Shown: piece after piece, positions 4,085 to 55,255 of the stretch | Layout of the letters: each line of letters opens with the position of its first letter | How positions within the stretch are numbered: position 1 is the first letter of the stretch | Assembly: GCF_012844455.2 (NCBI RefSeq) | Contig: NZ_JABBCQ020000002.1 | Coordinates: 186,001-250,000, forward strand | Direction of reading: 5' to 3' | Source of the DNA: Comamonas suwonensis | Lineage (GTDB): Bacteria > Pseudomonadota > Gammaproteobacteria > Burkholderiales > Burkholderiaceae_C | Length of the DNA: 64,000 nt | Notes under the pieces: model-generated | Databases searched by the model: none | Told to the model about the DNA's origin: nothing | The model's input: only the letters and a program-made list of their open reading frames with translations | Made by a program: the position numbers and the translations under genes

Positions 4085-5473
4085 ATGCAATTCGACCTCA
4101 GTCACGCAGCTCTTGAGATTCGCGAAGGCCGCAACAGCGCCTCAAACCTCATGCAAATGAGCATTACAGCCGCGCAAAGCCCTTTGTGCGCCCATGTTTT
4201 CAGTCAGACATTTTTTGACAAAGCCCGCTGGGCAGCCGCAGAAACGCCCCCCGCAGCCCCTTTGGCGGGCTTGGCTATTTCCATCAAGGACTTGTTTGAC
4301 ACCCAGGACTCAACCAGCGCAGCCAGCTCACGCGTGCTGCAGGATGCGCCCGCAGCCCAGACCGATGCCGCCGCCGTTGCCCGCCTGATTGCGGCAGGTG
4401 CCGCAATCATCGGTCGCACACACATGGTGGAGTTCGCCTTCTCAGGCATGGGCGTCAACCCGCACTTTGGCACACCCGCCGCACTCGATGCCCGCCACCC
4501 CGCCAACCCGCAACTGGCACCCTCGCGCCCGGCGCGCATTCCAGGCGGATCTTCGTCTGGCGCAGCAGTCTCCGTCGCCAGCGGAGCTGCATGGGCTGCC
4601 CTTGGCTCAGACACTGGCGGATCCATTCGCATTCCCGCCGCGCTCAATGGCCTGGTGGGTTTCAAAAGCACGGCGCGCCTGGTGCCCACCGATGGCACCG
4701 TACCTCTGTCCCCCACACTAGACACGGCCTGCGCCCTGACCCGCAGCGTGCGCGATGCCGTGCTGATTCATGAAGTTCTGGCCGACCGCAAGGTCGCCAA
4801 GAATGATCGCAGCCTGAGCCAATGGCGCTTGGCCGTGCCCCGCGCCGTTTTTTTTGACGACATCGAGCACGCTGTTCTCAGCGCCTTTGAGCGCAGCATT
4901 GCGCAGTTGCAAGCCGCTGGTGCGCAAATTGAGTGGATTGATCTGCCAGAGCTGCATGAGCTGGACCGCGTCAACGCCATCGGCGGTTTCTCGCCCACTG
5001 AAAGCTATGCCTGGCACCGCCACTTTCTGCAAGACCCCGATAAAGCTGCGCTGTACGACCCACGCGTGCGATCCCGTATCGAGCGCGGCGCTCGCATGAG
5101 CGCAGCCGACTACCTGGACTTGCTGGCGGCCCGCAAGAACTGGATCGCCCGGATGCAAAGCGCCATCGCCCCCTATGACGCTTTGCTCTCGCCCACCACC
5201 CCTATTGTTGCGCCCACCATTGCCTCGGTAGCTCCCGCCGATGGCAAAGATGCCGCAGCCGATGCCCAGCGTGATGAGGAGTTTGTGCGCGTCAACGGAC
5301 TGCTGCTGCGCAACACCAGCGTGGTCAACATGCTGGATGGCTGCGCACTATCATTGCCCTGCCACCAGCCAGACGAACTCCCCATGGGCCTGATGGTCTG
5401 GCACGCAGCCCTGCACGACGATGACGTGCTGAACATCAGCGCAGGCATCGAGGCGGTTTTGAATCCCAATTAA
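4085..5473 (+). CDS. Amidase (amidase signature family)
   Basis: A 462-residue serine amidase that hydrolyses carboxamides; the substrate cannot be told from sequence. The Ser-cisSer-Lys triad is readable: Lys68 in AISIKD, the cis-Ser in PGGSSSGAA at about 154-160, and the nucleophile Ser180 in GSDTGGSIRIP. It resembles GatA but stands alone without gatB/gatC, so a GatCAB role is unlikely. It is divergent from rpsB, with a 227-bp gap. A copy of the dispersed repeat follows its stop. Confidence 0.9.
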   Translation: MQFDLSHAALEIREGRNSASNLMQMSITAAQSPLCAHVFSQTFFDKARWAAAETPPAAPLAGLAISIKDLFDTQDSTSAASSRVLQDAPAAQTDAAAVARLIAAGAAIIGRTHMVEFAFSGMGVNPHFGTPAALDARHPANPQLAPSRPARIPGGSSSGAAVSVASGAAWAALGSDTGGSIRIPAALNGLVGFKSTARLVPTDGTVPLSPTLDTACALTRSVRDAVLIHEVLADRKVAKNDRSLSQWRLAVPRAVFFDDIEHAVLSAFERSIAQLQAAGAQIEWIDLPELHELDRVNAIGGFSPTESYAWHRHFLQDPDKAALYDPRVRSRIERGARMSAADYLDLLAARKNWIARMQSAIAPYDALLSPTTPIVAPTIASVAPADGKDAAADAQRDEEFVRVNGLLLRNTSVVNMLDGCALSLPCHQPDELPMGLMVWHAALHDDDVLNISAGIEAVLNPN

Positions 5474-5474
5474 C

Positions 5475-5515
5475 TACTTTTTTGATAGCTGCTAGCGCTT
5501 ATCAGCAAAGCACTA
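5475..5515. repeat. Dispersed AGCTGCTAGCGCTT repeat, intergenic copy
   Basis: TTTTTTGATAGCTGCTAGCG and a following CTTATCAGC lie in the 98-bp gap after the amidase gene, and a degenerate second arm (CACTAGCGGC) follows. The same core recurs at seven other places in the window. Confidence 0.75.
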
Positions 5516-5571
5516 GCGGCATAAAACACATCAAATTTCAGAAATTCGCAGCCTGACGCTATGCTCAAATC

Positions 5572-7146
5572 ATGCTGCGCATTTCCTCTCTCGACGCCCC
5601 TCCCACCTCCATATCAGAGAATCAAGGCTGGCCGCTTTTCAACACCTCAGCCACCCGCCAGATAGAGAAAGCCTGCGCAAGCCGACTGCCACCCCACACT
5701 TTGATGGAGCGCGCAGGCCTTGCCATTGCACGACTGGCCATGGCCCTCGCCCCACATGCGCAGCGCATCTGGATTGCCTGCGGCCCCGGCAACAACGGCG
5801 GCGACGGGTTTGAGGCTGCCACCCAACTCCAAGTGAGGCTACCTCACACGCGCATCATGGTCAGCCAGGTGCGCGAGCCCAGCCAACTGCCCGCAGATGC
5901 ACAAATCTCATGGCACAAGGCCCAGCAAGCGGGCGTGCAATGGGTCAGCAACTGCCCCAGCGACCTGAGCCCGCAAGACCTGTGCATAGATGCGCTACTG
6001 GGCATAGGCATTCATCATCGCGCCGACCGTAAACCCTCAGACGCAGACCAGCGCCTGCAGCAATTACTCAAGCAAGTCACCCAATCCGTCTGCCCGGTAC
6101 TATGCCTAGACATTGCTTCAGGCCTTGATGCAAACACCGGTCAATATCTGCCGGAGTTTGCCCCCCACGCCATGAGCAACCCAAGCCCGCGCCACACATT
6201 GGCTCTGCTGACATTGCAGCCCGGCCTGTTTACAGCACAAGGCAGAGATGCCTGCGGGCAAATCTGGTGGAATGACCTGGGTTGCGGCATTGCCAGCCAT
6301 CAGGCGGACGCATCCACTACTCAACCCGTGGCACATCTCAGCACCATTGCCAATTTGCAAGCAAAGCCTCGCCAACACACCAGCCACAAAGGCAGTTTTG
6401 GTGATGTAGCCGTGCTGGGCGGCGAAGGCCTTAGCCAGCGTGGCCTTTCCATGACGGGCGCAGCCTGGTTGGCTGCTCTTGCAGCCCTGCACAGCGGAGC
6501 TGGCCGAGTCATGCTGGCATTGCTGGACGAGCACGCACCGCAAGGCATTCCCCCCTGGCCAGAAATCATGCTGCGCCGGCCATCTGCACAAGACTGGAGC
6601 CAGCCTACGGTGGTTTGCGGCTGCGGAGGTGGCGAAGCCGTGCAAGCATGGCTTCCGCACATACTGGGGCAAGCCCCGCAGCTGGTACTGGATGCCGACG
6701 CACTCAACGCCATTGCCGCCAGCCCTGCGCTGGCCCAGCAGTTGACTGCACGCGCAGCACGCCAGCAACCCACAATATTGACACCCCACCCACTCGAGGC
6801 CGCGCGCCTGCTGCAAACCAGCACCACAGCCATTCAAGCCCATCGCCTGCAGGCCTGCCTGCAACTGGCGCAAAAATTTCAGTGCACAGCCCTACTCAAG
6901 GGCTCGGGCACGGTGATTGCCAATGCACAGCGGAAAATCTGGGTCAATTCCAGCGGCAACGCCCGCTTGGCCTCAGGCGGCACAGGCGATGTGCTTGCCG
7001 GGCTGATCGGCGCTCTGTGGGCACAAGGCAGCAATGCTGACGAAGCGGCGATTCAGGGCGCCTTTAAACACGGTCACACCGCAGATCAATGGCCTGCAGA
7101 TCGACCGTTCAGCGCCGGCGCACTGGCCATGCACCTCGCGCAGTAA
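5572..7146 (+). CDS. nnr: Bifunctional NAD(P)H-hydrate epimerase / ADP-dependent dehydratase
   Basis: Repairs damaged hydrated NADH and NADPH. The 524 residues hold two domains. The N-terminal epimerase (about 20-230) has CGPGNNGGDGFEAA at 70-83 and a later LLGIG. The C-terminal ribokinase-like dehydratase (about 255-520) has KGSFGDVAVLGG, the TPHPLEAARL block and the GNARLASGGTGDVLAG motif. The domain order is that of the bacterial fusion. The start at 5572 is the first ATG; another start up to about residue 44 is possible. It is convergent with rnr and shares a terminator with it. Confidence 0.95.
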   Translation: MLRISSLDAPPTSISENQGWPLFNTSATRQIEKACASRLPPHTLMERAGLAIARLAMALAPHAQRIWIACGPGNNGGDGFEAATQLQVRLPHTRIMVSQVREPSQLPADAQISWHKAQQAGVQWVSNCPSDLSPQDLCIDALLGIGIHHRADRKPSDADQRLQQLLKQVTQSVCPVLCLDIASGLDANTGQYLPEFAPHAMSNPSPRHTLALLTLQPGLFTAQGRDACGQIWWNDLGCGIASHQADASTTQPVAHLSTIANLQAKPRQHTSHKGSFGDVAVLGGEGLSQRGLSMTGAAWLAALAALHSGAGRVMLALLDEHAPQGIPPWPEIMLRRPSAQDWSQPTVVCGCGGGEAVQAWLPHILGQAPQLVLDADALNAIAASPALAQQLTARAARQQPTILTPHPLEAARLLQTSTTAIQAHRLQACLQLAQKFQCTALLKGSGTVIANAQRKIWVNSSGNARLASGGTGDVLAGLIGALWAQGSNADEAAIQGAFKHGHTADQWPADRPFSAGALAMHLAQ

Positions 7147-10306: not shown

Positions 10307-10391
<85 letters not shown>

Positions 10392-10396
10392 AATAC

Positions 10397-10430
10397 AAAA
10401 AGCTGTTGCATGCAAATGCAACAGCTTTTT
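10397..10430 (+). terminator. Terminator after tRNA-Leu copy 1
   Basis: AAAAAGCTGTTGCAT and its exact complement form a 15-bp stem with a GCAA loop, ending in a run of T. It matches the terminators after copies 2 and 3 except for one compensated base pair (T-A here, C-G there). Confidence 0.92.
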
Positions 10431-10511
10431 CGTTTCCCGCCAGCCTTTTCTCCGACCGTACATTTTTTCGGAAAAGCGCAGCAACTCGCCTGAGTGCTGG
10501 TTTTCCCGCTA

Positions 10512-10532
10512 TATAATTCAATCACTCTGAAA
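10512..10532 (+). promoter_or_regulatory. Promoter before tRNA-Leu copy 2 (repeated at 10738-10758 for copy 3)
   Basis: TATATAATTC gives a near-consensus -10 box about 12 nt before the tRNA 5' end. No TTGACA-like -35 is obvious at 17 bp. The same segment precedes copy 3. With a terminator behind every copy, each tRNA is probably its own transcription unit. Confidence 0.65.
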
Positions 10533-10617
<85 letters not shown>

Positions 10618-10622
10618 AATAC

Positions 10623-10656
10623 AAAAAGCCGTTGCATGCAAATGCAACGGCTTTTT
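10623..10656 (+). terminator. Terminator after tRNA-Leu copy 2
   Basis: AAAAAGCCGTTGCAT and its complement form a 15-bp stem with a GCAA loop and a terminal T run. Confidence 0.92.
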
Positions 10657-10758
10657 CGTTTGTTGCCTGCCTTTTCCCCGAACCTACATTTTTTGGAAAA
10701 AGCGCAGCAAATCGCCTGAGTGCTGGTTTTCCCGCTATATAATTCAATCACTCTGAAA

Positions 10759-10843
<85 letters not shown>

Positions 10844-11012: not shown

Positions 11013-13709
11013 TTACTTGCGCAGCAGTTGCTTCAGCGCAGTCTGCAGGCGGCGGGCAGAAGCCTCGTCGCTGGTGCTAGACAGCACCGTTGCCACGTCC
11101 TGACCCCATGTCTGCTGGGGCGATGCCTCATTGCGGCGCGTCAACATCTGCAGCTGCAGCGCACGACGGGCGTTCAGCTGGTCAGCAGGTGTATGCACAT
11201 CGGCAGCCATTTCAAGGCGCAGCAGCGCTTCAGCGGCATTGCCCTTAGGAGCAGCAACCACAGCGGCAGACCATGAAGTGCGCACAGGAGCCGTTACTTT
11301 TCCACCCAGCTGCTGGGCCGACGGCAGTTGCTCTGCATCACGCGCTTGCCAGGCACCCAGCAGTTGTGTCAGCGCTTCGCCATGGGCTTGAGCTGCCAGC
11401 TTGCGCAGGGCTTCTTGAGCATGCTCGACCGCATCGCGTTGAGCACGGAAGGCCGGATCAGCCAGACGTGGACCGCGATCCTCACGGATGAATTCACGCG
11501 GGCCACGACCTGTGTCACGGCCATCACGGCCGCCGCGATCAGCACCACGAGCACCGTCACGACCACGACCGCCATCACGGCGATCACCTGGACGCCCACC
11601 AGCGGCAGGAGCCGCTTCCTTCTTCATGCCGGGACGGTCATCACCGCGCACTGCCACCACGGGGCGAGCAGGCTTGGCGGCCACAGGAGTTTCTGCAACT
11701 GCTTCTGTTTCAGTAGCTTCAGGCGCTTGATCTGCCTGGGCTTGCGCTTGTTTTTCTTCTGTATTGGTAGCAGCAGCGGCAGCAGGCTGAGCCTTGATGG
11801 CCGCTTCCAGCTCGGCCAGAGCCGAACGGATCTTCTGCGCATCACCGCTGGCGTTGGCGACTTCCACAGACTTGGAAGCCTCCATCACACGGCGATCATG
11901 CTCAGACAATTCAACAGCTGGCGCGCGCGAACCACGCTCCACGCTCTTGCGGTTGAAGGCATCGTCCAGAGGCTTGCGGAATGCATCCCACAGCTTTTGC
12001 TCATGCTTGCGATCCAGAGGCACCACCTGTGCTTCGGCTTGCCAGCGTTGCTGCAGCGCCTTGACAGCATCAATGCGCAGGCTGGCAGCTTCACCCAGAG
12101 CCGTTGCCTCATCAATCATGGCGTGGCGGCGCTCCAGGCTGGCCTTTTGTGCAGCTTGCAAAGGCGCTTCGGCAGCAGCCATCGCTTGCTTGAACAACGG
12201 CTGCAGCTCAGCAAACAGCTTTTCGCCGATATGGCCGCTTTCGCGCCAGCGCTCACCAAACTGGCGCAGCGCGCGCAGCATGTTCTTCCAGTCCTGGCTG
12301 GCGGCGTTTTCAGCAGCCCATGCCTTGATTTCTTCCACCAGAGCCAGACGCTGAGTCTTGGCTTCGGTGCTGTCTTGACGAATCTTGTCGTGCCAGGATT
12401 CAACCACCTTGTAGGCTGCGTTGCAGGCTTCGTCAAACTTCTTCCACAGCGCATGGTTAGCCATGGCACCCTGGTCGGCTAGCTTCCACTGCTCACGCAG
12501 GTTACGCAGGGTTTCCTGAATCTTGCGGCCACCCAGCACCTGACCGTCTGGACGGTTGAGCATGGCTTCAGCCTTGGCCACCAGCTCTTCGCGCAGCTTG
12601 TCCGCGTTCTGGCGCAGCCAACCAGTAGCTTCTCCGGCGGCGATCAGGGCTTCGTGCACTTCGCTGACCAGAGCCTCGTCGACAAAGCGACCATGAGCCT
12701 TGATGGCAGCGCGCATGGCTTGCACCGCTTCAGAGCCTGCCTTGCTGTTGCCAGCAGCCGTTTCAGCCTTCAGCGCTTGCAGAGCCTGGTTCAGACCGGC
12801 CTTGGCAGCTTCGACCTGCTCAGGAGCAGGCTTGCCACGGCCACCAGCCGCAGGACGAGCCGCTGCGGGCTTGGCAGCTTCAGCAGCGGCCGCTTCGGGT
12901 GGCAAGCCGCGGGCCACGCGGATTTCATCGGCCCAGACGGGGACGGAAGGCAAAGGAGCAGTTTCGTCAGCGGCAGACGCTTCGGTTTGAGCCAGTGCAG
13001 ACTGAAAAGCATCCCAAACCAGTGCCAGCTGTGCAGATGCTGCTTCCAATTGAGGAGGGAAACGGCTATCCACGCTGGTCCAGCTGGCGTCGCCAGTCAG
13101 TTCCTTGGCCTGGTCTTGCCAGCGGGCCACATCCGCGCCCAGTGCCTCAAGCACGGACTTGGCGTCTTTCCAGGACTTGGTGGACAGCACTTCGATGCGC
13201 TGAGCCAGCAGCAAGGCCACTTCGCGCTGCACTTGCGTGCGGTGCTGCAGGTCTTCCACAGCCTTCACACGCTCGGCCAGCTGGGCCTTGAACTGCGACA
13301 GCGGCTCACGCGACAGAGCGGCACCCGCCTTGGCCGCGTCACGCTGCCATGCGGCAGCGGCGGCAGCATCGAAAGGCACGGCAGCCAGCAGGGCCTGAGC
13401 CTTTTCGGCCCATTCCACAGAAATTTTTTCCTGGTTGGCAGTGCGACGGATTTCATCCAGACGCTCACGCACGGCGCGGGCGGCACTCTTGTCGCCCTTG
13501 CTCAGTTCCTTGTGAACGTCTTGGAGTTGCTCAACCGTGGGTTGAGTGGCCAGCCAATCGCGGATGCGCGCAGCGCGATCACCCGAGGTTTCGGCGGAGA
13601 AAGCACCACCTGTCAATGCATCCAGCGGATGTTGCTCAGAATTCTTGGCAGAGGCCGGGTTCACTTCAGATGCATCAGACATGGTGCTGCTAGGAGAGAT
13701 AGATGTCAT
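11013..13709 (-). CDS. DUF349 domain-containing coiled-coil protein
   Basis: A large (898 residues) cytosolic, mostly alpha-helical protein of unknown function. Repeated DUF349-type helical segments run through the middle, with motifs such as LREQWKLADQG, DEACNAAYKVVESWHDK and ALRQFGERWRESGHIGEK. Around residues 740-800 is a low-complexity Arg/Gly/Asp stretch (RDGGRGRDGARGADRGG), followed by a helical C-terminal domain. No signal peptide or membrane segment. ATG at 13709 is used; ATG at 13682 (MSDASEVN) is equally possible and neither has a clear Shine-Dalgarno. A terminator follows. Confidence 0.8.
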   Translation of the reverse strand: MTSISPSSTMSDASEVNPASAKNSEQHPLDALTGGAFSAETSGDRAARIRDWLATQPTVEQLQDVHKELSKGDKSAARAVRERLDEIRRTANQEKISVEWAEKAQALLAAVPFDAAAAAAWQRDAAKAGAALSREPLSQFKAQLAERVKAVEDLQHRTQVQREVALLLAQRIEVLSTKSWKDAKSVLEALGADVARWQDQAKELTGDASWTSVDSRFPPQLEAASAQLALVWDAFQSALAQTEASAADETAPLPSVPVWADEIRVARGLPPEAAAAEAAKPAAARPAAGGRGKPAPEQVEAAKAGLNQALQALKAETAAGNSKAGSEAVQAMRAAIKAHGRFVDEALVSEVHEALIAAGEATGWLRQNADKLREELVAKAEAMLNRPDGQVLGGRKIQETLRNLREQWKLADQGAMANHALWKKFDEACNAAYKVVESWHDKIRQDSTEAKTQRLALVEEIKAWAAENAASQDWKNMLRALRQFGERWRESGHIGEKLFAELQPLFKQAMAAAEAPLQAAQKASLERRHAMIDEATALGEAASLRIDAVKALQQRWQAEAQVVPLDRKHEQKLWDAFRKPLDDAFNRKSVERGSRAPAVELSEHDRRVMEASKSVEVANASGDAQKIRSALAELEAAIKAQPAAAAATNTEEKQAQAQADQAPEATETEAVAETPVAAKPARPVVAVRGDDRPGMKKEAAPAAGGRPGDRRDGGRGRDGARGADRGGRDGRDTGRGPREFIREDRGPRLADPAFRAQRDAVEHAQEALRKLAAQAHGEALTQLLGAWQARDAEQLPSAQQLGGKVTAPVRTSWSAAVVAAPKGNAAEALLRLEMAADVHTPADQLNARRALQLQMLTRRNEASPQQTWGQDVATVLSSTSDEASARRLQTALKQLLRK

Positions 13710-13897: not shown

Positions 13898-16800
13898 TCA
13901 TTGTGCAGACAGACTCAGCTGAGCGCGCGGCGTCCAGTCCTTATCCTTCACATCGAGCTTGGGAGCGCCCAGAAACAGACGCTCCAGAGGCAGCTGCTGG
14001 GTGGACAGATAGTCACGCACCGCCACCCCACGTGCCAGCGCCAGCTCACGCATGGCGTCATCTGGCACGGCGATGCTGGCCACCAGCAAGGCCTTCATCT
14101 GGTCGGCGGGAAGCTCTTTGGCCATTCCGACCATGTTGCGGGGCTTTTTGATGTCGGCGCGGCCGTAAACCGCCTTGAGCAGCGCGGGACGCTCGGCATC
14201 GCTGATCTCAAACACCTCGTCACCACTCTTGCCATCACGGATGACTGCGCGGCGCTTCTGGGCCAGCAGCAGCCTATCGAGCTCAACCGATTTCCAGGCT
14301 TCCTTGTCTTCCACCTCACGCGCCTCCCCCACCACCGTCATTTTGAGTGCCGGACGGTCATTAAGCGATTTGACGATTTTGGCCAGTTGATCCTTGGCCT
14401 TGGCATCAAGCTGCGCACTGCCCGGAGCAAAACTCACTCCACCGGATTCATCGCCGCCCGAGAACGCGCCCGACAGCAATGCAAACGGCGCAGTCACGGC
14501 TTTCATGATGATGTTGCCCAGCACCTTGAAGACGATGGGCGCCAGACGGAACTGAGGATCGTTGAGCGAGCCGCTCAGCGGCACATCCAGATCAATCACG
14601 CCATTGCGGTCAGACAGCAAGGCCACGGCCAGCTTGACAGGCAGCGATGCAGGAGCACTTTCAACCTTGTCGCCGAAGGTCAGCTGGCGCAGCACCAATT
14701 TATTGGATGCCGTGAGCTGCCCATCAGGCTGCACCTTGTAGGTCACATCCATGTACAGCTTGCCGCGCTCAATGCCGTAGCCCGCGTACTTGATGGAGTA
14801 AGGCGACAGCGGCGACAGCTCTAGGTCATTCATCTGGGTACGGATATCCAGTGCCAGCGGCTTGGCGAGCGGGTTGATCTTGCCGCCAATATCCAGCGTC
14901 GCCGTGCCTTGCGCCTTGCCCTTGATCTCCAGATCCGCCATTTGCGGCTCTGCCTGGCCTACAGGCGCTTCAGACGAGAAAGCGCTCAAACGACCTTTCA
15001 GCTCACTCAGATCAGCCGAGTAATTGGGCTGAATGAAATAGTCAGAGAACTGCACCTTGCCACCGGTCAGCACGATGGGGCCAACCTTGATGACAGGCGC
15101 AGGGCCGCTCTCTGCAGGCTTGGCAGGTTCAGCCACAACCACGGCCTTATTCCCCTCAGGCTTTTCACCCGCGGCCACTTTCGCGTTACTCTGCTCGTTT
15201 TGCACCACGGATTGCTCGGACTTTTCGGTCTTCACAATATCCTGCAGATTAATACGACCGTTGCGCTGCACGATAACGCGGGCAAAAAAGTCGCTCAGCG
15301 CCGTCTCGCGCACGCTCACGCGCAGCGGCTGAGCAGGCTGCATATTCAGATCCAGACCGCGCAGGGCCAGCGTCTTCCAGGCCAGCAAATCATCGCCCAG
15401 CCCCAGACCCGTTCTGGCCGCCATGGCCTTGGCGCGGTCCGCTGTGGAATCGTTGAGAACCGCCGTCAACGCGCCCTTGGCCGTAGTGGGTTTGCCTGCC
15501 TCCTCCTGCACGGGCGCAGCCAGGGTGGAGCGCATGCGCAGGTCGTTGAGTTCCGCATCGCCCTGCACGGCGACTTGTGGGCCCTTGGCATGGGCCAGAT
15601 AGTTGACCTTGCCCCTAAAGTTGCCGTCCGCTCGAATCAGATCCACATTGAGTTTGTGGCCGAAGTAAGGCTCAAACGCATGCAGAGGCACAGCGCGGGC
15701 CTGCAACTGCCCTTGGGCAGACACAGGCGTCAGGCCGAACTGGCCCTTGAACTGAAGGTTGCCCGCCTGTACCCGGCGATTGGCAGCCAGCTGTGCCGAT
15801 ACTTCCAGCGGCGTAGGCGCGGCCTTGGTCGCCAGCGGCTCGAAAGCGCCCAGTCGCACACGCAGCGCGCTCACATCCAGCTGCACAGGCTGCGCATTCT
15901 GCCCTTGCACAGGCGCGGCATCGCGGAGTTGCACCACACCGCCATCTACCGCTATCGCAGCCAGCTTGACGGACCAAGGCCTGCCCTGCTCTGCTTTATC
16001 AGCCTTCGCACCCTGCTTTGCCGCCTTGGCTCCCGGCGCTGGCAACCAGCGCTCATACATCCAATGGCCTTGTGCATCACGCAGCGCGGCCAGCTGGGGT
16101 TTTTGCACGGCAATCGACTCCACCTGCACCAGCTGCGCAGCCAGATCGACCTGGACGCCGCTAACTTTGATCTGTTCCACCGCGACAGGGGCCAGCTTGT
16201 CTTGCAGCTGCAGCTTGTCTGCAGTCAGCTCTGCCACCTGCGCCATTACACCGCCCTCACCCCAGGAGACTTCAGCCTCGGTATTGAGTGTGGCGCTCAG
16301 CTGCGGCTTGAAGTGCGCCTCAATATAGGGTTGTACCCACTGCAGCGGCAGCTGCTTCAGTTTCAGCTTGAGCTTGCCGTCCTTCACCGTTGCTTGGCCA
16401 TCTAACACCAGTTGGGCAGCGCCATCGGCCTTGGCTTGCTCGCCAGAATGCAGGCCAGCCGTTGCCGTCAGATTCAGCGGCTCACTCATGGGCCAGGCAA
16501 TGTTCTTGACCTGCACGGCCAGCGGCGCCAGGGTCAGGACCGCAGGCTTGGTGCCTGCTGCAAGGTCTTGCCAATGCAGGGTTCCGCTATCAATATCGAA
16601 CTGCTGCACGATGACTGTCAAAGGCTTGGCAGGCATTTCAGCCTTTGCTTCCGCCTTGCCAGCCGCCTCTACCGATGCTTGCGCCTGCGGCTCGGCAGGA
16701 GCCGCAGCCGTGTTCAAGCCCAGCCAGTTGATCACGCCTTGCGCATTACGGCTGGCGTGCACCTCAGGCTTGACCCAGCGCACTGACTCCAGCGCAATCT

Positions 16801-17779
16801 GGCTTTGCAGCGGCTGCACGTTCTTGAGTTGAACTTCCAGCGCCTCGAAGCTCAGCAGCGGCGCATTCTGGCGATCCTGCAACTCCACACCCGACAAGGC
16901 CAGCTTGCCGCTGACGCTCACCACCGGCTGGTCTTTTGCTTCAAAGCGAATTTGCAAGTCCGTATCCAGCACACCTGAACGCGGCAGAACCGGCACGCTG
17001 GCGGGCACATAGCCCAGATAGGGGGTGAGATCGATCTTGCCCCACTTCAATGTCATTGCCGTCTGGCGACTATCGGTAAACGGCGTGCTTTCGCCCGAGG
17101 TGTCGAACTGGCTGCCGTTGAGGTCAAATGCCAGATGTGGCAAGACCTTGATCTCGCGCTTGGACTTCAGATTGCTGATGAAAGGAATGCTCAGCTGCAA
17201 GCCCTTGAGTTCATGCTTGCGCTGCACAGACTCATCATTGAGCTCAACACGGCCATCGCGCAACGCAATGTTGTAGAGCGCAAAGTTCACCGGCTTGGAC
17301 GGCTCTTCGTCCTTGGGCTCGGAGAGCTTGGTGATCACATCATCAATATCGAGCTTGCCCAGCGAGTGCTGGGTCAGGCGCACCACCGGCGCATCGACCT
17401 CAATGGCATCCAGCACAGGGGCCAGCCTGAACAGAGACTGCGCACTGGCATTGACAAAGATGCGCTTGATTTCCAGCTGGGGCTGGGCGGCAGATTCAAG
17501 GTCTTTTTGGCCTTCAGCGCTTTCTGAATCAGCGCTTGCAGCTACTTTTTTAATCGCTTTATCAATCACCAGATCATGCAAGGTGATGGACAGCGCCCAT
17601 GGCGAAAACTCGATCTTTCCCACATGCACACCGCGACCGAGCTTGTCAGAAGCCTGTTTTTCCAGCTGGCTTTTGGCCACGACAGGCACCACGGCCCACA
17701 AAAGCAGCCATAGCAGCAAGAGCACAAGAACAGACCCGAGCAGTCGGCGCAACCAGCGATTCGATGTGAGCAATGACAT
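13898..17779 (-). CDS. DUF748 / AsmA-like envelope protein
   Basis: A 1,293-residue protein with one N-terminal membrane anchor (about residues 8-35, a run of Leu and Trp ending in VVPVVAKSQ) and a very long periplasmic part rich in beta-strand repeats, typical of the AsmA superfamily. Relatives bridge inner and outer membranes and move lipids (family knowledge); the role here is inferred. The C-terminal part, from APGSAQLDAKAKDQLAK on, resembles the helical OmpA-like tail found in DUF748 proteins. ATG at 17779 is preferred over TTG at 17797. A dispersed repeat sits in frame near the N terminus (DKAIKKVAASADSES). Confidence 0.85.
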   Translation of the reverse strand: MSLLTSNRWLRRLLGSVLVLLLLWLLLWAVVPVVAKSQLEKQASDKLGRGVHVGKIEFSPWALSITLHDLVIDKAIKKVAASADSESAEGQKDLESAAQPQLEIKRIFVNASAQSLFRLAPVLDAIEVDAPVVRLTQHSLGKLDIDDVITKLSEPKDEEPSKPVNFALYNIALRDGRVELNDESVQRKHELKGLQLSIPFISNLKSKREIKVLPHLAFDLNGSQFDTSGESTPFTDSRQTAMTLKWGKIDLTPYLGYVPASVPVLPRSGVLDTDLQIRFEAKDQPVVSVSGKLALSGVELQDRQNAPLLSFEALEVQLKNVQPLQSQIALESVRWVKPEVHASRNAQGVINWLGLNTAAAPAEPQAQASVEAAGKAEAKAEMPAKPLTVIVQQFDIDSGTLHWQDLAAGTKPAVLTLAPLAVQVKNIAWPMSEPLNLTATAGLHSGEQAKADGAAQLVLDGQATVKDGKLKLKLKQLPLQWVQPYIEAHFKPQLSATLNTEAEVSWGEGGVMAQVAELTADKLQLQDKLAPVAVEQIKVSGVQVDLAAQLVQVESIAVQKPQLAALRDAQGHWMYERWLPAPGAKAAKQGAKADKAEQGRPWSVKLAAIAVDGGVVQLRDAAPVQGQNAQPVQLDVSALRVRLGAFEPLATKAAPTPLEVSAQLAANRRVQAGNLQFKGQFGLTPVSAQGQLQARAVPLHAFEPYFGHKLNVDLIRADGNFRGKVNYLAHAKGPQVAVQGDAELNDLRMRSTLAAPVQEEAGKPTTAKGALTAVLNDSTADRAKAMAARTGLGLGDDLLAWKTLALRGLDLNMQPAQPLRVSVRETALSDFFARVIVQRNGRINLQDIVKTEKSEQSVVQNEQSNAKVAAGEKPEGNKAVVVAEPAKPAESGPAPVIKVGPIVLTGGKVQFSDYFIQPNYSADLSELKGRLSAFSSEAPVGQAEPQMADLEIKGKAQGTATLDIGGKINPLAKPLALDIRTQMNDLELSPLSPYSIKYAGYGIERGKLYMDVTYKVQPDGQLTASNKLVLRQLTFGDKVESAPASLPVKLAVALLSDRNGVIDLDVPLSGSLNDPQFRLAPIVFKVLGNIIMKAVTAPFALLSGAFSGGDESGGVSFAPGSAQLDAKAKDQLAKIVKSLNDRPALKMTVVGEAREVEDKEAWKSVELDRLLLAQKRRAVIRDGKSGDEVFEISDAERPALLKAVYGRADIKKPRNMVGMAKELPADQMKALLVASIAVPDDAMRELALARGVAVRDYLSTQQLPLERLFLGAPKLDVKDKDWTPRAQLSLSAQ
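17515..17570. repeat. Dispersed repeat copy inside the DUF748 gene
   Basis: AGCGCTTGCAGCTACTTTTT at 17531-17550 matches the intergenic repeat core on the opposite strand and is more A/T-rich than its surroundings. In the gene's frame it reads IKKVAASA, almost the same peptide as the repeat inside the deacetylase gene at 53660-53700 (SKKIAASA). Confidence 0.7.
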
Positions 17780-19644: not shown

Positions 19645-19800
19645 CTAGAGGGTGTACGCAACTGGCGATAGGCGCAGAGTTTTTCTGCCGCTGACGTGGA
19701 AACCAGCAGACTGCAAGGTTTGTGAACCACCGGGGAGCGTACCGCCCAAGGTCGCAGCGATTGCAACCCGCAAGCGTTTCAGCCGTTCGCCTGGGCAGCC
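19645..19800 (+). promoter_or_regulatory. ZTP (pfl) riboswitch upstream of glyA
   Basis: Contains the conserved blocks of the ZTP/ZMP aptamer in order: ACTGGCG (19661), GTGGAA (19697), ACCACCGGGGAGCG (19726-19739) and CGCCTGGGCA (19788-19797). GTACGC (19654) pairs with GCGTAC (19737) to close the first subdomain. GGCG of the first block can pair with CGCC of the last as the diagnostic pseudoknot. ZTP riboswitches sense the purine intermediate that builds up when 10-formyl-THF is short and commonly control glyA, folD and purH (established). A -10-like TACACT precedes it at 19641. Confidence 0.92.
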
Positions 19801-19837
19801 CTTGGCCTCAAGGGAATTTCAAGTTCACAGGACTGCC

Positions 19838-21640: not shown

Positions 21641-21727
21641 GGCGGCTCCAAACTGATACTGCTATTAACTCAAGAGCATGTAGTGCCTTCTAATCAATGG
21701 ATCCAAGGTTTTTTTGATTCATTTTCA

Positions 21728-29470: not shown

Positions 29471-29510
29471 TCATATTTATATAAAAAACAGCCTCTAGCG
29501 CTTACCCTTA
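29471..29510. repeat. Dispersed repeat copy, intergenic
   Basis: ATAAAAAACAGCCTCTAGCG followed by CTTACCC fills most of the 72-bp gap between the acetyltransferase and hydrolase genes. It ends 5 bp before the GGAG that serves the next gene. Confidence 0.7.
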
Positions 29511-29524
29511 TTGCGGAGACAGCT

Positions 29525-30334
29525 ATGTTTTTCGAAGTTAACAACGCCAAAGTCTATGCCTATACCGGAGGCAAGGCCTTCGATGCCGCCAAGCCCACCG
29601 CCATCTTCATTCACGGCGTGCTGTGCGACCACAGCGTATGGGCGCTGCAAAGCCGCTATATCGCCAACCACGGCTGGAATGTGCTGGCACTGGATCTTCC
29701 CGGCCATGGCAAAAGCGGCGGCGCAGCGCCAAAGACGGTTGAAGATGCCGCCACGTTCATCGGCCAGCTGATGGATGCCGCGGGATTGCAAAAAGCCGCG
29801 CTGATCGGCCACAGCTGGGGCAGTCTGATTTGCATGGAAGCTGCCGCCACGCTCAAAGACCGCATCAGCCATCTGGTGCTGGTGGGCACTGCCTTCCCCA
29901 TGAAGGTCTCGCCCGCGCTTCTGGAATCGGCCCTGAACACACCCGAAAAAGCCATTGCCATGGTCAACACCTTTTCGCGCGCAACATTGTCCCCGCCCAA
30001 TGGCGCGGGCAGCTGGGTGTTCGGCGCCGGCATGGCGCTGGGCCGCCGCGTGCTGGCCAGCAATGCCGATACCAACTTGCTGCACGCAGGCTTCACCGCC
30101 TGCGACCGCTATGCGAATGGTGAAGCGGCCATGGCCCAGATCACCTGCCCGGTTTTGTTTGTGCTGGGGGAACAAGACCAGATGACCACGCCCAAGGCCG
30201 CCAAGGGCTTGATCGACGCGGCACAAGCGGCAGGTAAAACAGTCAAAGTGCAAATGATCGCCAACGGCCACAACCAGATGACAGAATCGCCCGACGCTAC
30301 GCTGTTTGCGATCCGGGATTTTCTGGCGGCGTAA
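29525..30334 (+). CDS. Alpha/beta hydrolase
   Basis: A 269-residue alpha/beta-hydrolase fold protein. Oxyanion-hole HG in FIHGVLCDHSVW (about 28-39), nucleophile elbow GHSWGS, acid in LGEQDQMTTP and His in NGHNQMTES complete the triad. There is no signal peptide, so it is cytosolic. The substrate is unknown. ATG at 29525 has GGAG upstream. The next gene starts 31 bp later, so co-transcription is possible. Confidence 0.9.
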   Translation: MFFEVNNAKVYAYTGGKAFDAAKPTAIFIHGVLCDHSVWALQSRYIANHGWNVLALDLPGHGKSGGAAPKTVEDAATFIGQLMDAAGLQKAALIGHSWGSLICMEAAATLKDRISHLVLVGTAFPMKVSPALLESALNTPEKAIAMVNTFSRATLSPPNGAGSWVFGAGMALGRRVLASNADTNLLHAGFTACDRYANGEAAMAQITCPVLFVLGEQDQMTTPKAAKGLIDAAQAAGKTVKVQMIANGHNQMTESPDATLFAIRDFLAA

Positions 30335-34799: not shown

Positions 34800-36557
34800 T
34801 CATAGAGTTTTGCGGACCTCATCAACTCTATGAATATTTTCTATAGGGACCGCAATCAGCTCGGCCACAGTCATCACATCCAGCTGGGCGCGCTGCCACA
34901 ACGGCTGCACCGCTTCAGAGGGCTGGAGCAAAAGGCGCTGCACCAGTGGCTCGACCAGCGTGGTCTGCGGGTCTACCAACAGCACATAACGAGGCTCCGT
35001 ACTTTCCAGCGACACATAGGCATCTGGTGGCTGCACGGCGCCCACCCAGTCCAGCTGGGCCAGCGCCTGCAGCACCGGTTGAATCTGCGAAGCTTCGATG
35101 CGCAGACGGCGCGAGAGCTGGTGCACAAACAGGCCTTTGTGGGGTAGCTCTCGCTCTTTGGCCAGGCATTGCAGTACCTCGACGGCCAGCTCAAACTGCC
35201 AGCCCCTGTGGCCCGTCATCCGCTCCACCCCGCTGAGGATGGTGGGCAGATAGGCGGTGACCAGAGCACCCGTCAGCACAATACTCCAGGCCACATACAT
35301 CCAGATCAGCAAAATGGGCAGCGTGGCAAATGCGCCGTAAATCACCGAATAGGTGGGCACCGACGCCAGGTAAACACCCAGCGCCTTCTTGGCTACTTCC
35401 ATGAAAACAGCCACAAACACGCCACCCACCACGGCATGGCGCCAGCGCACCGGCGTGTTGGGCACGTAGTGATAAAGCCCGGCCATGCCTGCGGCCAGCA
35501 CGACAAATTCGATGGAGTCAAACACAAAGCGCAAACTGGCTGGCAGCGCGTTGACCAGCCCTTTGGATGCAGACATCACATACGACGACAGCACCAGACT
35601 CAGACCCAGCAGCAGCGGCCCCAGCGTGATGGCAGCCCAGTAAATCAGCACGCGCTGGCCCAGCGGACGCAACTGGCGCACACGCCAGATGTTGTTGAGC
35701 GTGCGGTCAATGGTCAGGATCAGCGCAAGCGCCGTCACCATCAAAATGGAAAAACCCACCAGACCCAGCTGGCTGGCCTTGGACGCAAACTGCGTGAGAT
35801 AACCCAGCACCTGCCGCGCAATGGTCTCGGGGATCAGGCTGTCCATCAGCCAGCGCTCCAGTACCAGTTGCGCCTTGCCAAAGATGGGGAAGGCCGTGAA
35901 CAAAGCCAGCGCCACGGTAAAAAATGGCACCAGCGCCAGCAGCGAGGTGAAAGTGAGGCTGCTGGCCGTCACACCCAGCCGGTCTTCCTTGAAGCGGGCC
36001 AGCAGCACCTGCGCGGTGTTTTTCCATGGGAAGGTACGCAGGCGCAACTGCACGCGGCGGCTTTGGCGGTGGAATTCGTCCCTCAGCTCTTGCTTGCTGG
36101 GCACGCGTGGTTTGGGAATGCGCCCGGCCAAGTCTTTACAACCCGCCAGCAGCACTTTGGCCTTGCCAAACCTGTCGGCAGACGCTTTTCTTATTTCTGA
36201 ACTTACTCCTGAAATAGAAGCAGTTTCCGCTTGATGCGCCTGGGCTGACGGCATGTTTGGTGCTGAAGGCGAAGCGTAGCCAGACCAGCTCTGACCCGCC
36301 TGACTGAAGGATGCAGTCTGTGGCGCAACGGACGGAGCACCAGATGGAACGGCTTGCTGCGGAGGCCGGTCCGCATGGGACGAATTCAATGGCGGCGCGA
36401 ACGGAGGTTCTTGGGCATCAAACTGCGGCTCGTGCAAGCTGGGCTCTTGGCGCAGATGCGGCTCGGGCAAAGGTGTCACACCCGCTGGTGATGGCGGCTG
36501 TGCCTGCGGATTTCCTTCCAACGCAGTCCAGAAACCAGTGCGGTCATTTTTCTTCAT
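34800..36557 (-). CDS. YihY/BrkB family inner-membrane protein with Pro/Gln-rich N-terminal extension
   Basis: 585 residues. About 1-140 is a low-complexity Pro/Gln/Ser region; about 185-430 is the YihY/BrkB domain with six or so membrane helices (RLGVTASSLTFTSLLALVPF, then PLLLGLSLVLSSYVM). After about 445 comes a cytosolic domain with a winged-helix look. BrkB was first linked to serum resistance in Bordetella, but the molecular role is unclear. ATG at 36557 has AAGGAG upstream. An A/T-rich dispersed-repeat copy lies in the N-terminal region, coding QAETASISGVSSEIRKAS. Confidence 0.88.
   Translation of the reverse strand: MKKNDRTGFWTALEGNPQAQPPSPAGVTPLPEPHLRQEPSLHEPQFDAQEPPFAPPLNSSHADRPPQQAVPSGAPSVAPQTASFSQAGQSWSGYASPSAPNMPSAQAHQAETASISGVSSEIRKASADRFGKAKVLLAGCKDLAGRIPKPRVPSKQELRDEFHRQSRRVQLRLRTFPWKNTAQVLLARFKEDRLGVTASSLTFTSLLALVPFFTVALALFTAFPIFGKAQLVLERWLMDSLIPETIARQVLGYLTQFASKASQLGLVGFSILMVTALALILTIDRTLNNIWRVRQLRPLGQRVLIYWAAITLGPLLLGLSLVLSSYVMSASKGLVNALPASLRFVFDSIEFVVLAAGMAGLYHYVPNTPVRWRHAVVGGVFVAVFMEVAKKALGVYLASVPTYSVIYGAFATLPILLIWMYVAWSIVLTGALVTAYLPTILSGVERMTGHRGWQFELAVEVLQCLAKERELPHKGLFVHQLSRRLRIEASQIQPVLQALAQLDWVGAVQPPDAYVSLESTEPRYVLLVDPQTTLVEPLVQRLLLQPSEAVQPLWQRAQLDVMTVAELIAVPIENIHRVDEVRKTL
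36182..36235. repeat. Dispersed repeat copy inside the YihY/BrkB gene
   Basis: GAAATAGAAGCAGTTTCCGC followed by TTGAT (36211-36235) resembles the RC form of the repeat, and the flanking 30 bp are markedly A/T-rich in a GC-rich gene. The match is looser than for the other copies. Confidence 0.5.
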
Positions 36558-41374: not shown

Positions 41375-41389
41375 GCCGCACACTGTTCA

Positions 41390-41493
41390 CTATAAAAATC
41401 AAAGCTGCTTGCGCTTGATTTCAATAGGCTTCAAGATTTTTAGTATCTGAAATCTATGAATAACAAGCGCTAGCAGCTTCTTTATTGATAGCT
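41390..41493. repeat. Inverted pair of dispersed repeats between thyA and folA
   Basis: AAGCTGCTTGCGCTTGATTT (41402-41421) and AACAAGCGCTAGCAGCTTCT (from 41463) are inverted copies of the repeat about 45 bp apart, able to fold into one long hairpin in RNA or a cruciform in DNA. The right copy runs up to the folA ATG at 41494. Confidence 0.8.
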
Positions 41494-52940: not shown

Positions 52941-53765
52941 TCAGCGGTGCTGCGCAATCCAGCCTTGATACGCAGGATGCTCGACCAGCGTACGGAAGCA
53001 AAAGCCTTTGTCCAGCAGGCCGACGATCAGCGGCTCCAGCACCGCTGGTGCCCACGGGTCCTGACGTGACCAGATACCAAGGTGGGCCAGCAAGATATCG
53101 CCGCCGCGTATGTTTTTGAGCGCTTGCGACAGCAAACGTTCATTGGGGTATTTATCGCTGGGCAGCTCATCGCCCAGAAAACCTGCAGGTGCCCAGCCAA
53201 TATGCTGATAACCACCCTGCTGCGCTGCAGCAATCAATGCGGGCGATGTCTTGCCGCCCGGCGCGCGGTACAGCGGCAAGGGTTTGCGTCCGGTCATCTG
53301 GGTGAGCCGCTGGGCGGCGCGGGCAATTTCTTGCTGGTATTCGGCCACCGAGACCACAAAGCTCTGCCCTGCTCTGGGCCCTGCCGATGGCTTGACCTTG
53401 AAGTGCGTGACCTGCCCTGTGGCCTTGTCGCGAACATCAGCCAGCCAGTACATGTGGTCAAAGGTGTGCGATGCGAGCTGGTGACCCTCGTCGGCACGCG
53501 CCTTCCACCAAGGTACCCAGAAGTCGCTGAGACTGCTACCGCCCTCTTTCGCCGGCTCATTGGCCGCGAAGAAAGTGACCTGTACCTTGTGCTTTTGCAG
53601 CACCTGGGCGACCAGGTTGGCAATGCCCATGTGCCCCGTATCAAAAGTCAGGTAGACCGGCTTGTTGCATGCGCTAGCAGCTATCTTTTTTGAAAAATCA
53701 TCAGCCACAGACAACCCGGGCAGGCCAGCCGCCGCGGATGCGAGCATGAATTGACGTCTTTGCAT
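52941..53765 (-). CDS. Polysaccharide deacetylase family protein, altered first motif
   Basis: 274 residues with a signal peptide (RRQ then a hydrophobic stretch to about 21) and a NodB-type domain. Motif 1 is LTFDTGH: the catalytic-base Asp is present but the second, metal-binding Asp is Thr. Motif 2 SHTFDH keeps both metal His. LYRAPGGKTSP (motif 3) and LLAHLG (motif 5 region) are present. Activity may be modified or lost. A dispersed repeat in the gene codes SKKIAASACNK just before the catalytic domain. GGAGGG precedes the ATG. Confidence 0.87.
   Translation of the reverse strand: MQRRQFMLASAAAGLPGLSVADDFSKKIAASACNKPVYLTFDTGHMGIANLVAQVLQKHKVQVTFFAANEPAKEGGSSLSDFWVPWWKARADEGHQLASHTFDHMYWLADVRDKATGQVTHFKVKPSAGPRAGQSFVVSVAEYQQEIARAAQRLTQMTGRKPLPLYRAPGGKTSPALIAAAQQGGYQHIGWAPAGFLGDELPSDKYPNERLLSQALKNIRGGDILLAHLGIWSRQDPWAPAVLEPLIVGLLDKGFCFRTLVEHPAYQGWIAQHR
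53660..53700. repeat. Dispersed repeat copy inside the deacetylase gene
   Basis: GCGCTAGCAGCTATCTTTTT (53671-53690) matches the intergenic repeat core at nearly every base. In the coding frame it supplies KKIAASA, between the signal peptide and the catalytic domain. Confidence 0.82.
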
Positions 53766-55135: not shown

Positions 55136-55200
55136 AACATCAAAAGCAGGAGCAGCTAGCGCCTGCATTGCATGTCATTCAGTACTAAAAATACTTGAAA
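55136..55200. repeat. Dispersed repeat copy, intergenic
   Basis: ATCAAAAGCAGGAGCAGCTA then GCGCCTG matches the common core, and the right flank GTACTAAAAATACTTGAAAC resembles the flank near 41430-41450. Confidence 0.7.
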
Positions 55201-55255
55201 CCGTTGGAATAAAGGCACGTACTACTCACTTAATGATGAGCATCATGCTTCTATA

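Follow-up and report, generated by a model that had tools for sequence, protein, structure and literature searches.

The window, that is the whole 64,000-nucleotide stretch of DNA analysed here, carries copies of a dispersed, dyad-symmetric repeat of about 64 bp. We hold, with a little more confidence than doubt, that this repeat is a putative recognition site used in one clade, with dialects that co-evolve with a putative trans-acting factor. The proposal builds on the family itself, its structure, position, age, in-gene copies and species variants; the factor, most likely a DNA-binding protein, would read the site, and selection or drive would act on the DNA. A wider version, for which our confidence stays somewhat short of even, is a chromosome-wide code in this clade, of some 300–500 64-bp dyad sites per genome lying both within genes and between them, with dialects and a putative factor, being neither uptake sequences nor REPs (the figure is extrapolated from 34–88 sites in 400–800 kb, and the clade is probably Comamonadaceae). 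The usual explanation of short palindromic repeats within bacterial genes is selfish insertion with donation of a peptide, and the initial annotation of the window likewise took the repeat for an inserted element that donates a peptide. Our analysis suggests that a repeat may resemble a protein linker without having been inserted there. If confirmed, the proposal points to a putative factor that reads DNA in a family common in the environment; the different dialects of close relatives provide a natural experiment for finding it.

The short core reported in the initial annotation matches the window eight times when up to two mismatches are allowed, against 1.19 matches expected, and none of 100 shuffles reached eight. 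Exact copies are present at 5487(+) and 41465(-), and near-copies, none more than about 20 bases from the annotated place, at 17530(-), 29490(+), 41403(+), 53669(-) and 55151(+). The eighth match, at 17193, stands without the 64-bp context (it is absent from the matrix list of the window). The whole genome (4.72 Mb) contains 35 exact cores and none of the reversed control. Of the 30 exact-core copies that were fetched, 22 were aligned, leaving aside four long forms, three further copies and one entry that repeats a place on its other strand; they form a 64-bp unit free of gaps, whose stem has 14 pairs and whose loop has 7 nt. The repeat unit is an ungapped 64-bp imperfect palindrome and not a 14-mer. 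It consists of the arms AGCTGCTAGCGCTT and AAGCGCTAGAGGC, a 7-bp spacer and A/T-rich flanks; the majority sequence of 143 intergenic copies is nCTnnnAAATTGATAGCTGCTAGCGCTTnATnnATAAGCGCTAGAGGCnnTTTTnATTnnAAnT, the consensus of the stem region is TTGAT-AGCTGC...GAGGC-nnTTTT, and the GC fraction of the copies ranges from 0.27 to 0.58. A longer form, with arms about 48 bp apart, also exists.

A covariance model of the repeat finds at least 150 matches in the genome, some of which are the two strands of a single place. In 58 loci (1.0 Mb) from CysN relatives that are more distant, it finds none at E ≤ 10. Both this model and the 64-bp matrix were built from copies of genome G000, so that scores favour the G000 dialect. 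Intergenic copies score 25.8–80.1 with the matrix, and the best score in the reversed window is only -12.0. One matrix match of 45.0 falls within the negative set, at locus L198 (outside the 58 covariance-model loci); this locus probably belongs to a family member, since its CysN is 86% identical to the query. When genes were synonymously re-encoded, the top matrix score was 35.2 over 103 million positions; the real genes of 1.6 Mb have 20 positions above that value, counting both strands, so that one site may count twice. Shuffles, reversed controls, negative loci and the re-encoding null together reject a chance origin of the repeat.

The window contains a full 64-bp intergenic site, a hairpin, at 5473..5536 (+), with 60.1 bits in cmsearch and 61.0 with the matrix. 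Folded as RNA it reaches -18.6 kcal/mol (z -3.95), and a gap of equal length is present in the relative G554. Further intergenic sites are located at 29475..29538 (-; 22.3 bits, matrix 53.5) and, more weakly, at 21661..21724 (+; matrix 23.5). The covariance model also places an intergenic long form of about 105 bp, whose arms stand about 48 bp from each other, at 41388..41492 (-), which scores 46.4 and 23.5 with the matrix at its two ends (41389 and 41429); G554 has a matching gap here, and G541 and G093 have similar sequence. A weak intergenic part of a long form, probably decayed, occupies 55137..55240 (+; matrix -2.5 and -0.5). The copy reported at 55136 thus holds as a core match (55151), whereas as a 64-bp site it is weak (-2.5).

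Inside genes, the DUF748 gene (13898-17725, -) carries a site at 17494..17557 (-; 30.3 bits, matrix 44.4), translated as AIKKVAASADSESAEGQKDLES, and the polysaccharide deacetylase gene (52941-53765, -) carries a half site at 53633..53696 (-; 25.9 bits, E 0.0017 in the window), translated as FSKKIAASACNKP. KKVAASA of DUF748 and KKIAASA of the deacetylase do share one frame, as was claimed. The deacetylase copy, reported at 53660, is present but weak: its matrix score is 9.9 (p 1.5e-6 per position against the negative loci), it comprises essentially the left half only, and it is the weakest of the named copies apart from that at 55137. A site that had escaped the earlier list, at 11701..11764 (+; matrix 33.9), lies in an ORF of the DUF349 family (Pfam DUF349; 11013-13682, -), and orthologues in G093, G554 and G541 have a related segment. 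The looser copy reported at 36182 corresponds to a site 23 bases away, at 36205..36268 (+; matrix 25.0), in the N-terminal part of an ORF of the YihY/BrkB family (34800-36557, -), whose Pfam BrkB domain begins at residue 191. This site is in-gene only with the long start; the codon-score finder starts the gene at 36155, which leaves the site upstream.

Counting the core across genomes, as the initial annotation had proposed, shows that the family is restricted. The exact core occurs in 8 of 300 genomes sampled across the order, and four of those eight belong to other families, where the single copy per genome does not exceed the reversed control. Within a family sample, 41 of 250 genomes carry the core, with up to 144 copies (reversed control, at most 6 per genome). 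Core copies number 2 to 46 in each of the 11 relatives with the DUF748 segment, against 0 to 2 in 14 other genomes of the genus. Paracidovorax, Rhodoferax, Acidovorax and Xylophilus are among the closest CysN relatives that bear a name, which makes Comamonadaceae the very probable family of the host. Among the fetched loci and the window, 162 distinct copies were found at E ≤ 0.01, of which 152 are intergenic, 9 lie in predicted genes and 1 is partial, the genes having been called with a simple codon-score finder and not a standard annotator. The description of a small palindromic family that is mostly intergenic and also present within genes is thereby borne out. A stretch of 1.6 Mb from three relatives, taken without regard to copies, contains 89 of them at E ≤ 0.05 (72 intergenic, 13 in-gene, 4 partial). 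Genes are therefore strongly but not wholly avoided, because 72 of 89 copies are intergenic although 84% of this DNA is genic. The density of sites in the clade is about one per 9–12 kb.

The nine in-gene copies are hosted by ComEC, CysN, DprA, HemD, a CobC-like phosphatase, an Eco57I-like protein (two copies), DUF748 and, weakly, the deacetylase; in-gene hosts in the relatives are ScpB, a DUF4011 helicase, a carboxyltransferase, efflux proteins, a histidine kinase and an oxidoreductase. Both orientations occur. Each orientation has one dominant reading, giving TINSVAASA..-like and ..NQPQA...QAQAAI.TIE-like peptides. The three same-strand frames are open in 36 (the shared frame), 6 and 26 of the 143 intergenic copies and the opposite-strand frames in 12, 47 and 45, compared with 26% of shuffled copies. 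The idea that the shared frame marks a special peptide is weakened by these counts, as stops limit the choice of frame and explain the sharing in part only. The CobC copy is read in the same-strand frame that is open in just 6 intergenic copies. That copies sit in tolerant linkers, as had been suggested, agrees with the low amino-acid identity rank of the element window within HemD, ComEC, DprA, DUF748 and the deacetylase (0.01–0.12), but not with CobC (0.30). In the proposed mechanism, in-gene sites would occupy places where codons can bend to the DNA sequence. By eye, an element-like stretch is among the best-kept parts of the fast-changing C-terminal linker of ScpB (L374, L410, L431).

The proposal of a trans-acting factor draws on species dialects of the core, which were examined with matrix positions 23-28 and 36-42 masked. 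GCGC is the core at 42 of 70 intergenic sites in G554, 23 of 36 in G093 and 120 of 157 in G000, and at none of 28 in G541, whose sites have GGAC (8) and GCAC (7) as the commonest sequences of the other arm. Position 24 is T at 24 of the 28 intergenic sites of G541 as against 12 of 263 in G554, G093 and G000 combined (nominal Fisher 2.6e-22; the 263 sites are non-independent, because orthologous copies are included), and at in-gene sites the same base is found in 4/6 versus 1/35 (nominal Fisher 7e-4). Thirteen G541 sites could be mapped to G554, and the site is present there at 12; over these 12, position 24 is T at 10 in G541 and C at all 12 in G554, and outside the core the two species agree at 19–32 of 34 bases. 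The core has changed in place with so much of the surrounding sequence kept, which argues against re-insertion or conversion of the whole element.

The same shift is seen in a dialect-blind set of genes (CobC, HemD, ComEC, DprA, DUF748 and CysN; masked score above 10), where T at 24 is present in 5/6 sites of G541, 1/6 of G554, 0/6 of G000, 0/5 each of G093 and G542, and 0/4 of G560. GACT at positions 39-42 occurs in 5/5 sites of G542, in 2/6 of G541 and in 0/21 of G000, G554, G093 and G560 together; four of the five G542 sites have GGACT at 38-42, and the exact-core count of G542 is 2. G542 therefore seems to own a separate variant, given GACT throughout and no T at 24. The full dialect is drawn from 400 kb of one lineage, and that of G542 from five in-gene sites in which the right arm alone is clearly shifted. 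Restriction or loss of GCGC in G541 was rejected as a cause, as the genome-wide observed/expected ratio of GCGC is unchanged (1.05, with 1.06 and 1.09 in relatives). With three species pooled, none of 300 shuffles pairs positions 24-40 and 25-39 of the stem as often as the real sites do; the eight other stem pairs examined in this set show no covariation beyond shuffles. Under the proposal, the preference of the factor would have changed in a lineage and the sites would have followed, giving the dialects.

In-gene copies give a further indication that the DNA itself is kept. Third-position identity of element windows was compared with that of windows of like amino-acid identity in six clade genomes, picked once the six large-genome relatives had proved low-scoring at most sites and been left out. 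In these genomes the element windows lie below the gene mean in amino-acid identity and above the controls in third-position identity in all six genes: HemD 0.67 vs 0.48 (0/38 controls as high), ComEC 0.51 vs 0.40 (0/13; G560 was kept here although its ComEC has no site), DprA 0.60 vs 0.44 (0/15), DUF748 0.72 vs 0.47 (0/30), CobC 0.60 vs 0.53 (19/108) and the deacetylase, in five genomes, 0.74 vs 0.57 (3/204). A selection that did not depend on retention, with sites picked from one genome only, gave a weaker result: the mean difference was +0.091, with the element window higher in 29 of 35 non-independent comparisons and not in 6. Over all 12 clade genomes, codon identity is not consistently raised (ranks 0.20, 0.30, 0.37, 0.74, 0.87 and 0.91). 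Sequence comparison thus provides moderate evidence that, in genomes retaining the family, in-gene copies keep their third positions better than matched windows. Together with the in-place change of the core in G541, this conservation suggests that the DNA is what is kept.

Among the alternatives, the one that survives best, which we nevertheless find doubtful, is a non-autonomous mobile palindromic repeat of the RPE or REP kind that once transposed, also in frame into linkers, and whose peptides now decay. The many copies within one clade fit this explanation, as do the intragenic RPEs and REPs reported from other bacteria (PMC10969869, PMC3733652). RPEs, the Rickettsia palindromic elements, are described as palindromic repeats that also lie in frame inside unrelated protein genes (PMC10969869), a likeness to the present family; however, they measure about 150 bp against 64 bp, and here 152 of 162 copies are intergenic, several in-gene copies lack a clear gain in length and the core has changed species-wide. 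The GTAG/CGTC super-families of REPs are reported as hairpins near 3' ends in tandem and convergent gaps, some of them intragenic (PMC3733652). Our family shares the location past 3' ends in both kinds of gap, but its stem adjoins no GTAG or CGTC tag, its conserved unit is longer and, unlike the GTAG type, it shows no association with a RAYT (Y1) transposase gene. The single Y1_Tnp gene of the genome has no element copy in its 3.3-kb locus (best matrix score -4.6), and a RAYT link was rejected on this ground.

The age of the copies also speaks against mobility. Of 154 copies with usable flanks, 24 could be mapped to 800 kb of G554, where 23 meet a gap of matching length and one (L157) a shorter gap. 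The same comparison bears on a MITE, which would be marked by target-site duplication and by presence or absence among relatives. Occupancy of mapped sites, scored with the masked matrix, is 12/13 for G541 in G554, 8/11 for G541 in G093 and 21/24 for G093 in G554. Since mapped sites are mostly occupied in relatives, most copies are old and remain in place; no recent hop and no clean empty site was found among the mapped copies. One orthologous place has the short form in G554 and the long form in G093. At L372 (19299-19362) and its orthologous site in L430, a short form with a fully paired variant stem in one species corresponds to a long form in the other.

Orthologues with and without the element were compared for segment length in six genes. 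The initial annotation had proposed clean in-frame insertion, to be recognised by aligning orthologues, and the result is divided: DUF748 gained length and five other genes show no clear gain. The DUF748 segment is 47 aa in the 12 genomes with the element (one clade) and 27–39 aa in 18 without it, a gain of 8–20 aa and not a constant 64 bp. Neither an exact insertion boundary nor a target duplication was seen in DUF748 or the other compared genes. DUF748 and CysN look like added sequence, and the N-terminal extension of CysN looks element-derived in several genera of the family. Element-like DNA underlies this extension in Rhodoferax, in Xylophilus and in the genus of the host, and more weakly in Paracidovorax (loci L156 2659-2722, and L173, L176 and L171 near 10000; matrix 25.5 in Rhodoferax OV413 and 10.3 in Xylophilus). 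Donation of a peptide by insertion is thus supported for DUF748 and perhaps CysN. It finds no clear support in DprA (43–46 aa in the clade, 43–63 aa without the element), HemD (47 aa with it; without it, 39–40 in five and 47 in seven), ComEC (46 aa in 11 clade genomes, 8 of which score above 0, and 39–54 aa in 14 without; +4 aa relative to the nearest orthologues lacking the site) and the deacetylase (41–51 aa in the clade, 28–56 aa outside). In G546, G547 and G571, which are not members of the clade, the deacetylase leader also scores 16–33.

CobC contradicts simple insertion. Its segment is 50 aa in 12 clade genomes and 47–51 aa in ten orthologues scoring below -20, and outside the clade G546, G547 and G571 (51–72 aa) score 17–34. 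The element DNA encodes SPLQRCEQLALDLKALQPDF, and the motif SPLxRCxQLA is common to ten orthologues that score -21 to -46; a peptide shared with element-less orthologues was named at the outset as the mark of protein conservation. Because these orthologues share the motif at nearly equal length, simple insertion cannot explain the CobC copy. The CobC element codons are A/T-rich (GC3 0.27 vs 0.73 elsewhere in the gene), also in the distant relative G546 (locus L459; 0.32 vs 0.69), and the 12 CobC and HemD element windows scoring above 30 have GC3 0.09–0.36 against 0.62–0.78 in the rest of the gene. At least this one in-gene copy looks to have been imposed on existing codons. Under the recognition-site proposal, at least some in-gene sites would have arisen or been refined in place and not by clean insertion; a mobile-element history may account for the first spread of the family, with repeated in-place origin as the alternative. 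Against the recognition-site reading, the CobC likeness could in principle be an old coincidence turned useful.

By analogy, the repeat might instead be a DUS-like site of natural transformation, with preferential uptake and recombination driving and keeping the sites and their dialects; we judge this improbable. DUS of Neisseriaceae are reported to have species-specific dialects, intragenic copies in permissive spots and inverted pairs at terminators (PMC3630211), and comparable features are found here, including dialects concerted across sites (well sampled in one lineage, seen in five genes of a second). The transformation genes ComEC and DprA carry sites, which may be coincidence. However, the kept unit is the whole 64-bp dyad and not a 10–12-bp word, and copies number hundreds and not thousands: about one site per 9–12 kb is far below DUS density. 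GATAGCTGCT falls in 64-bp sites at 22/24, 5/5 and 6/7 places in the three relatives, and no 9- or 10-mer reaches DUS-like counts in their 1.6 Mb, by which a classical uptake sequence is rejected.

We also consider it rather improbable that RNA function alone accounts for the likeness of the copies, as members of a family of bidirectional intrinsic terminators or 3'-UTR hairpins. The position of the sites is in favour: intergenic copies typically stand 10–30 nt beyond a stop codon, and in tandem gaps the stem lies a median of 21 nt (quartiles 12 and 32) 3' of the upstream stop codon; in 69 of 85 such gaps the 3' end is the nearer one. Copies prefer convergent to divergent gaps (43 vs 9), although divergent gaps outnumber convergent ones in the 1.6-Mb background of the relatives (193 and 149; Fisher 8e-8). 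Gene strand equals element strand in 47 of the 85 tandem gaps. The stem has an MFE of -14.1 kcal/mol vs -5.9 in simple shuffles, and its pairing is slightly above shuffles (81.7 vs 79.5%; 0/500). However, double-sided pair changes are not in excess (4 vs 4.5 in shuffles), bases outside the stem are also conserved, runs of at least four T occur in only 75 of 143 copies, and the fold of the DUF748 copy is not more stable than that of its shuffles (z -0.94). A purely RNA role is insufficient, because copies stand in genes in both orientations. Under the recognition-site proposal, sites just 3' of stop codons can fold as hairpins and may act as terminators as well; against it, terminator function could alone explain the intergenic sites.

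The last known family considered is BRE, the beta-proteobacterial repeat element, reported as a dispersed short repeat of Comamonadaceae and Bordetella with some copies in coding sequences (PMC3110155), as here. Compared by description only, BRE is GC-rich (Bordetella mean 69%, against 0.27–0.58 here) and about 90 bp long, and several of its loci have tandem copies (PMC3110155). RPE, REP, DUS and BRE each fail to match on all tested features. Within the open-licence literature, no paper was found that could be tied to this repeat, nor one in which a 64-bp dyad occurs together with in-gene copies and a core shift across a species. At L151 1536-3101 (G000:C33), four copies 382–394 bp apart are interleaved with a larger GC-rich repeat, which is possibly another repeat family.

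An Rfam search of 5400-5600 in the window returned no family at E ≤ 1, and the gathering-score scan of the whole window returned tRNA and ZTP only. The window has three successive tRNA genes at 10307-10840, with equal scores (50 bits) and a spacing of 226 bp, and a match to the ZMP/ZTP riboswitch at 19648-19803 (44.5 bits).
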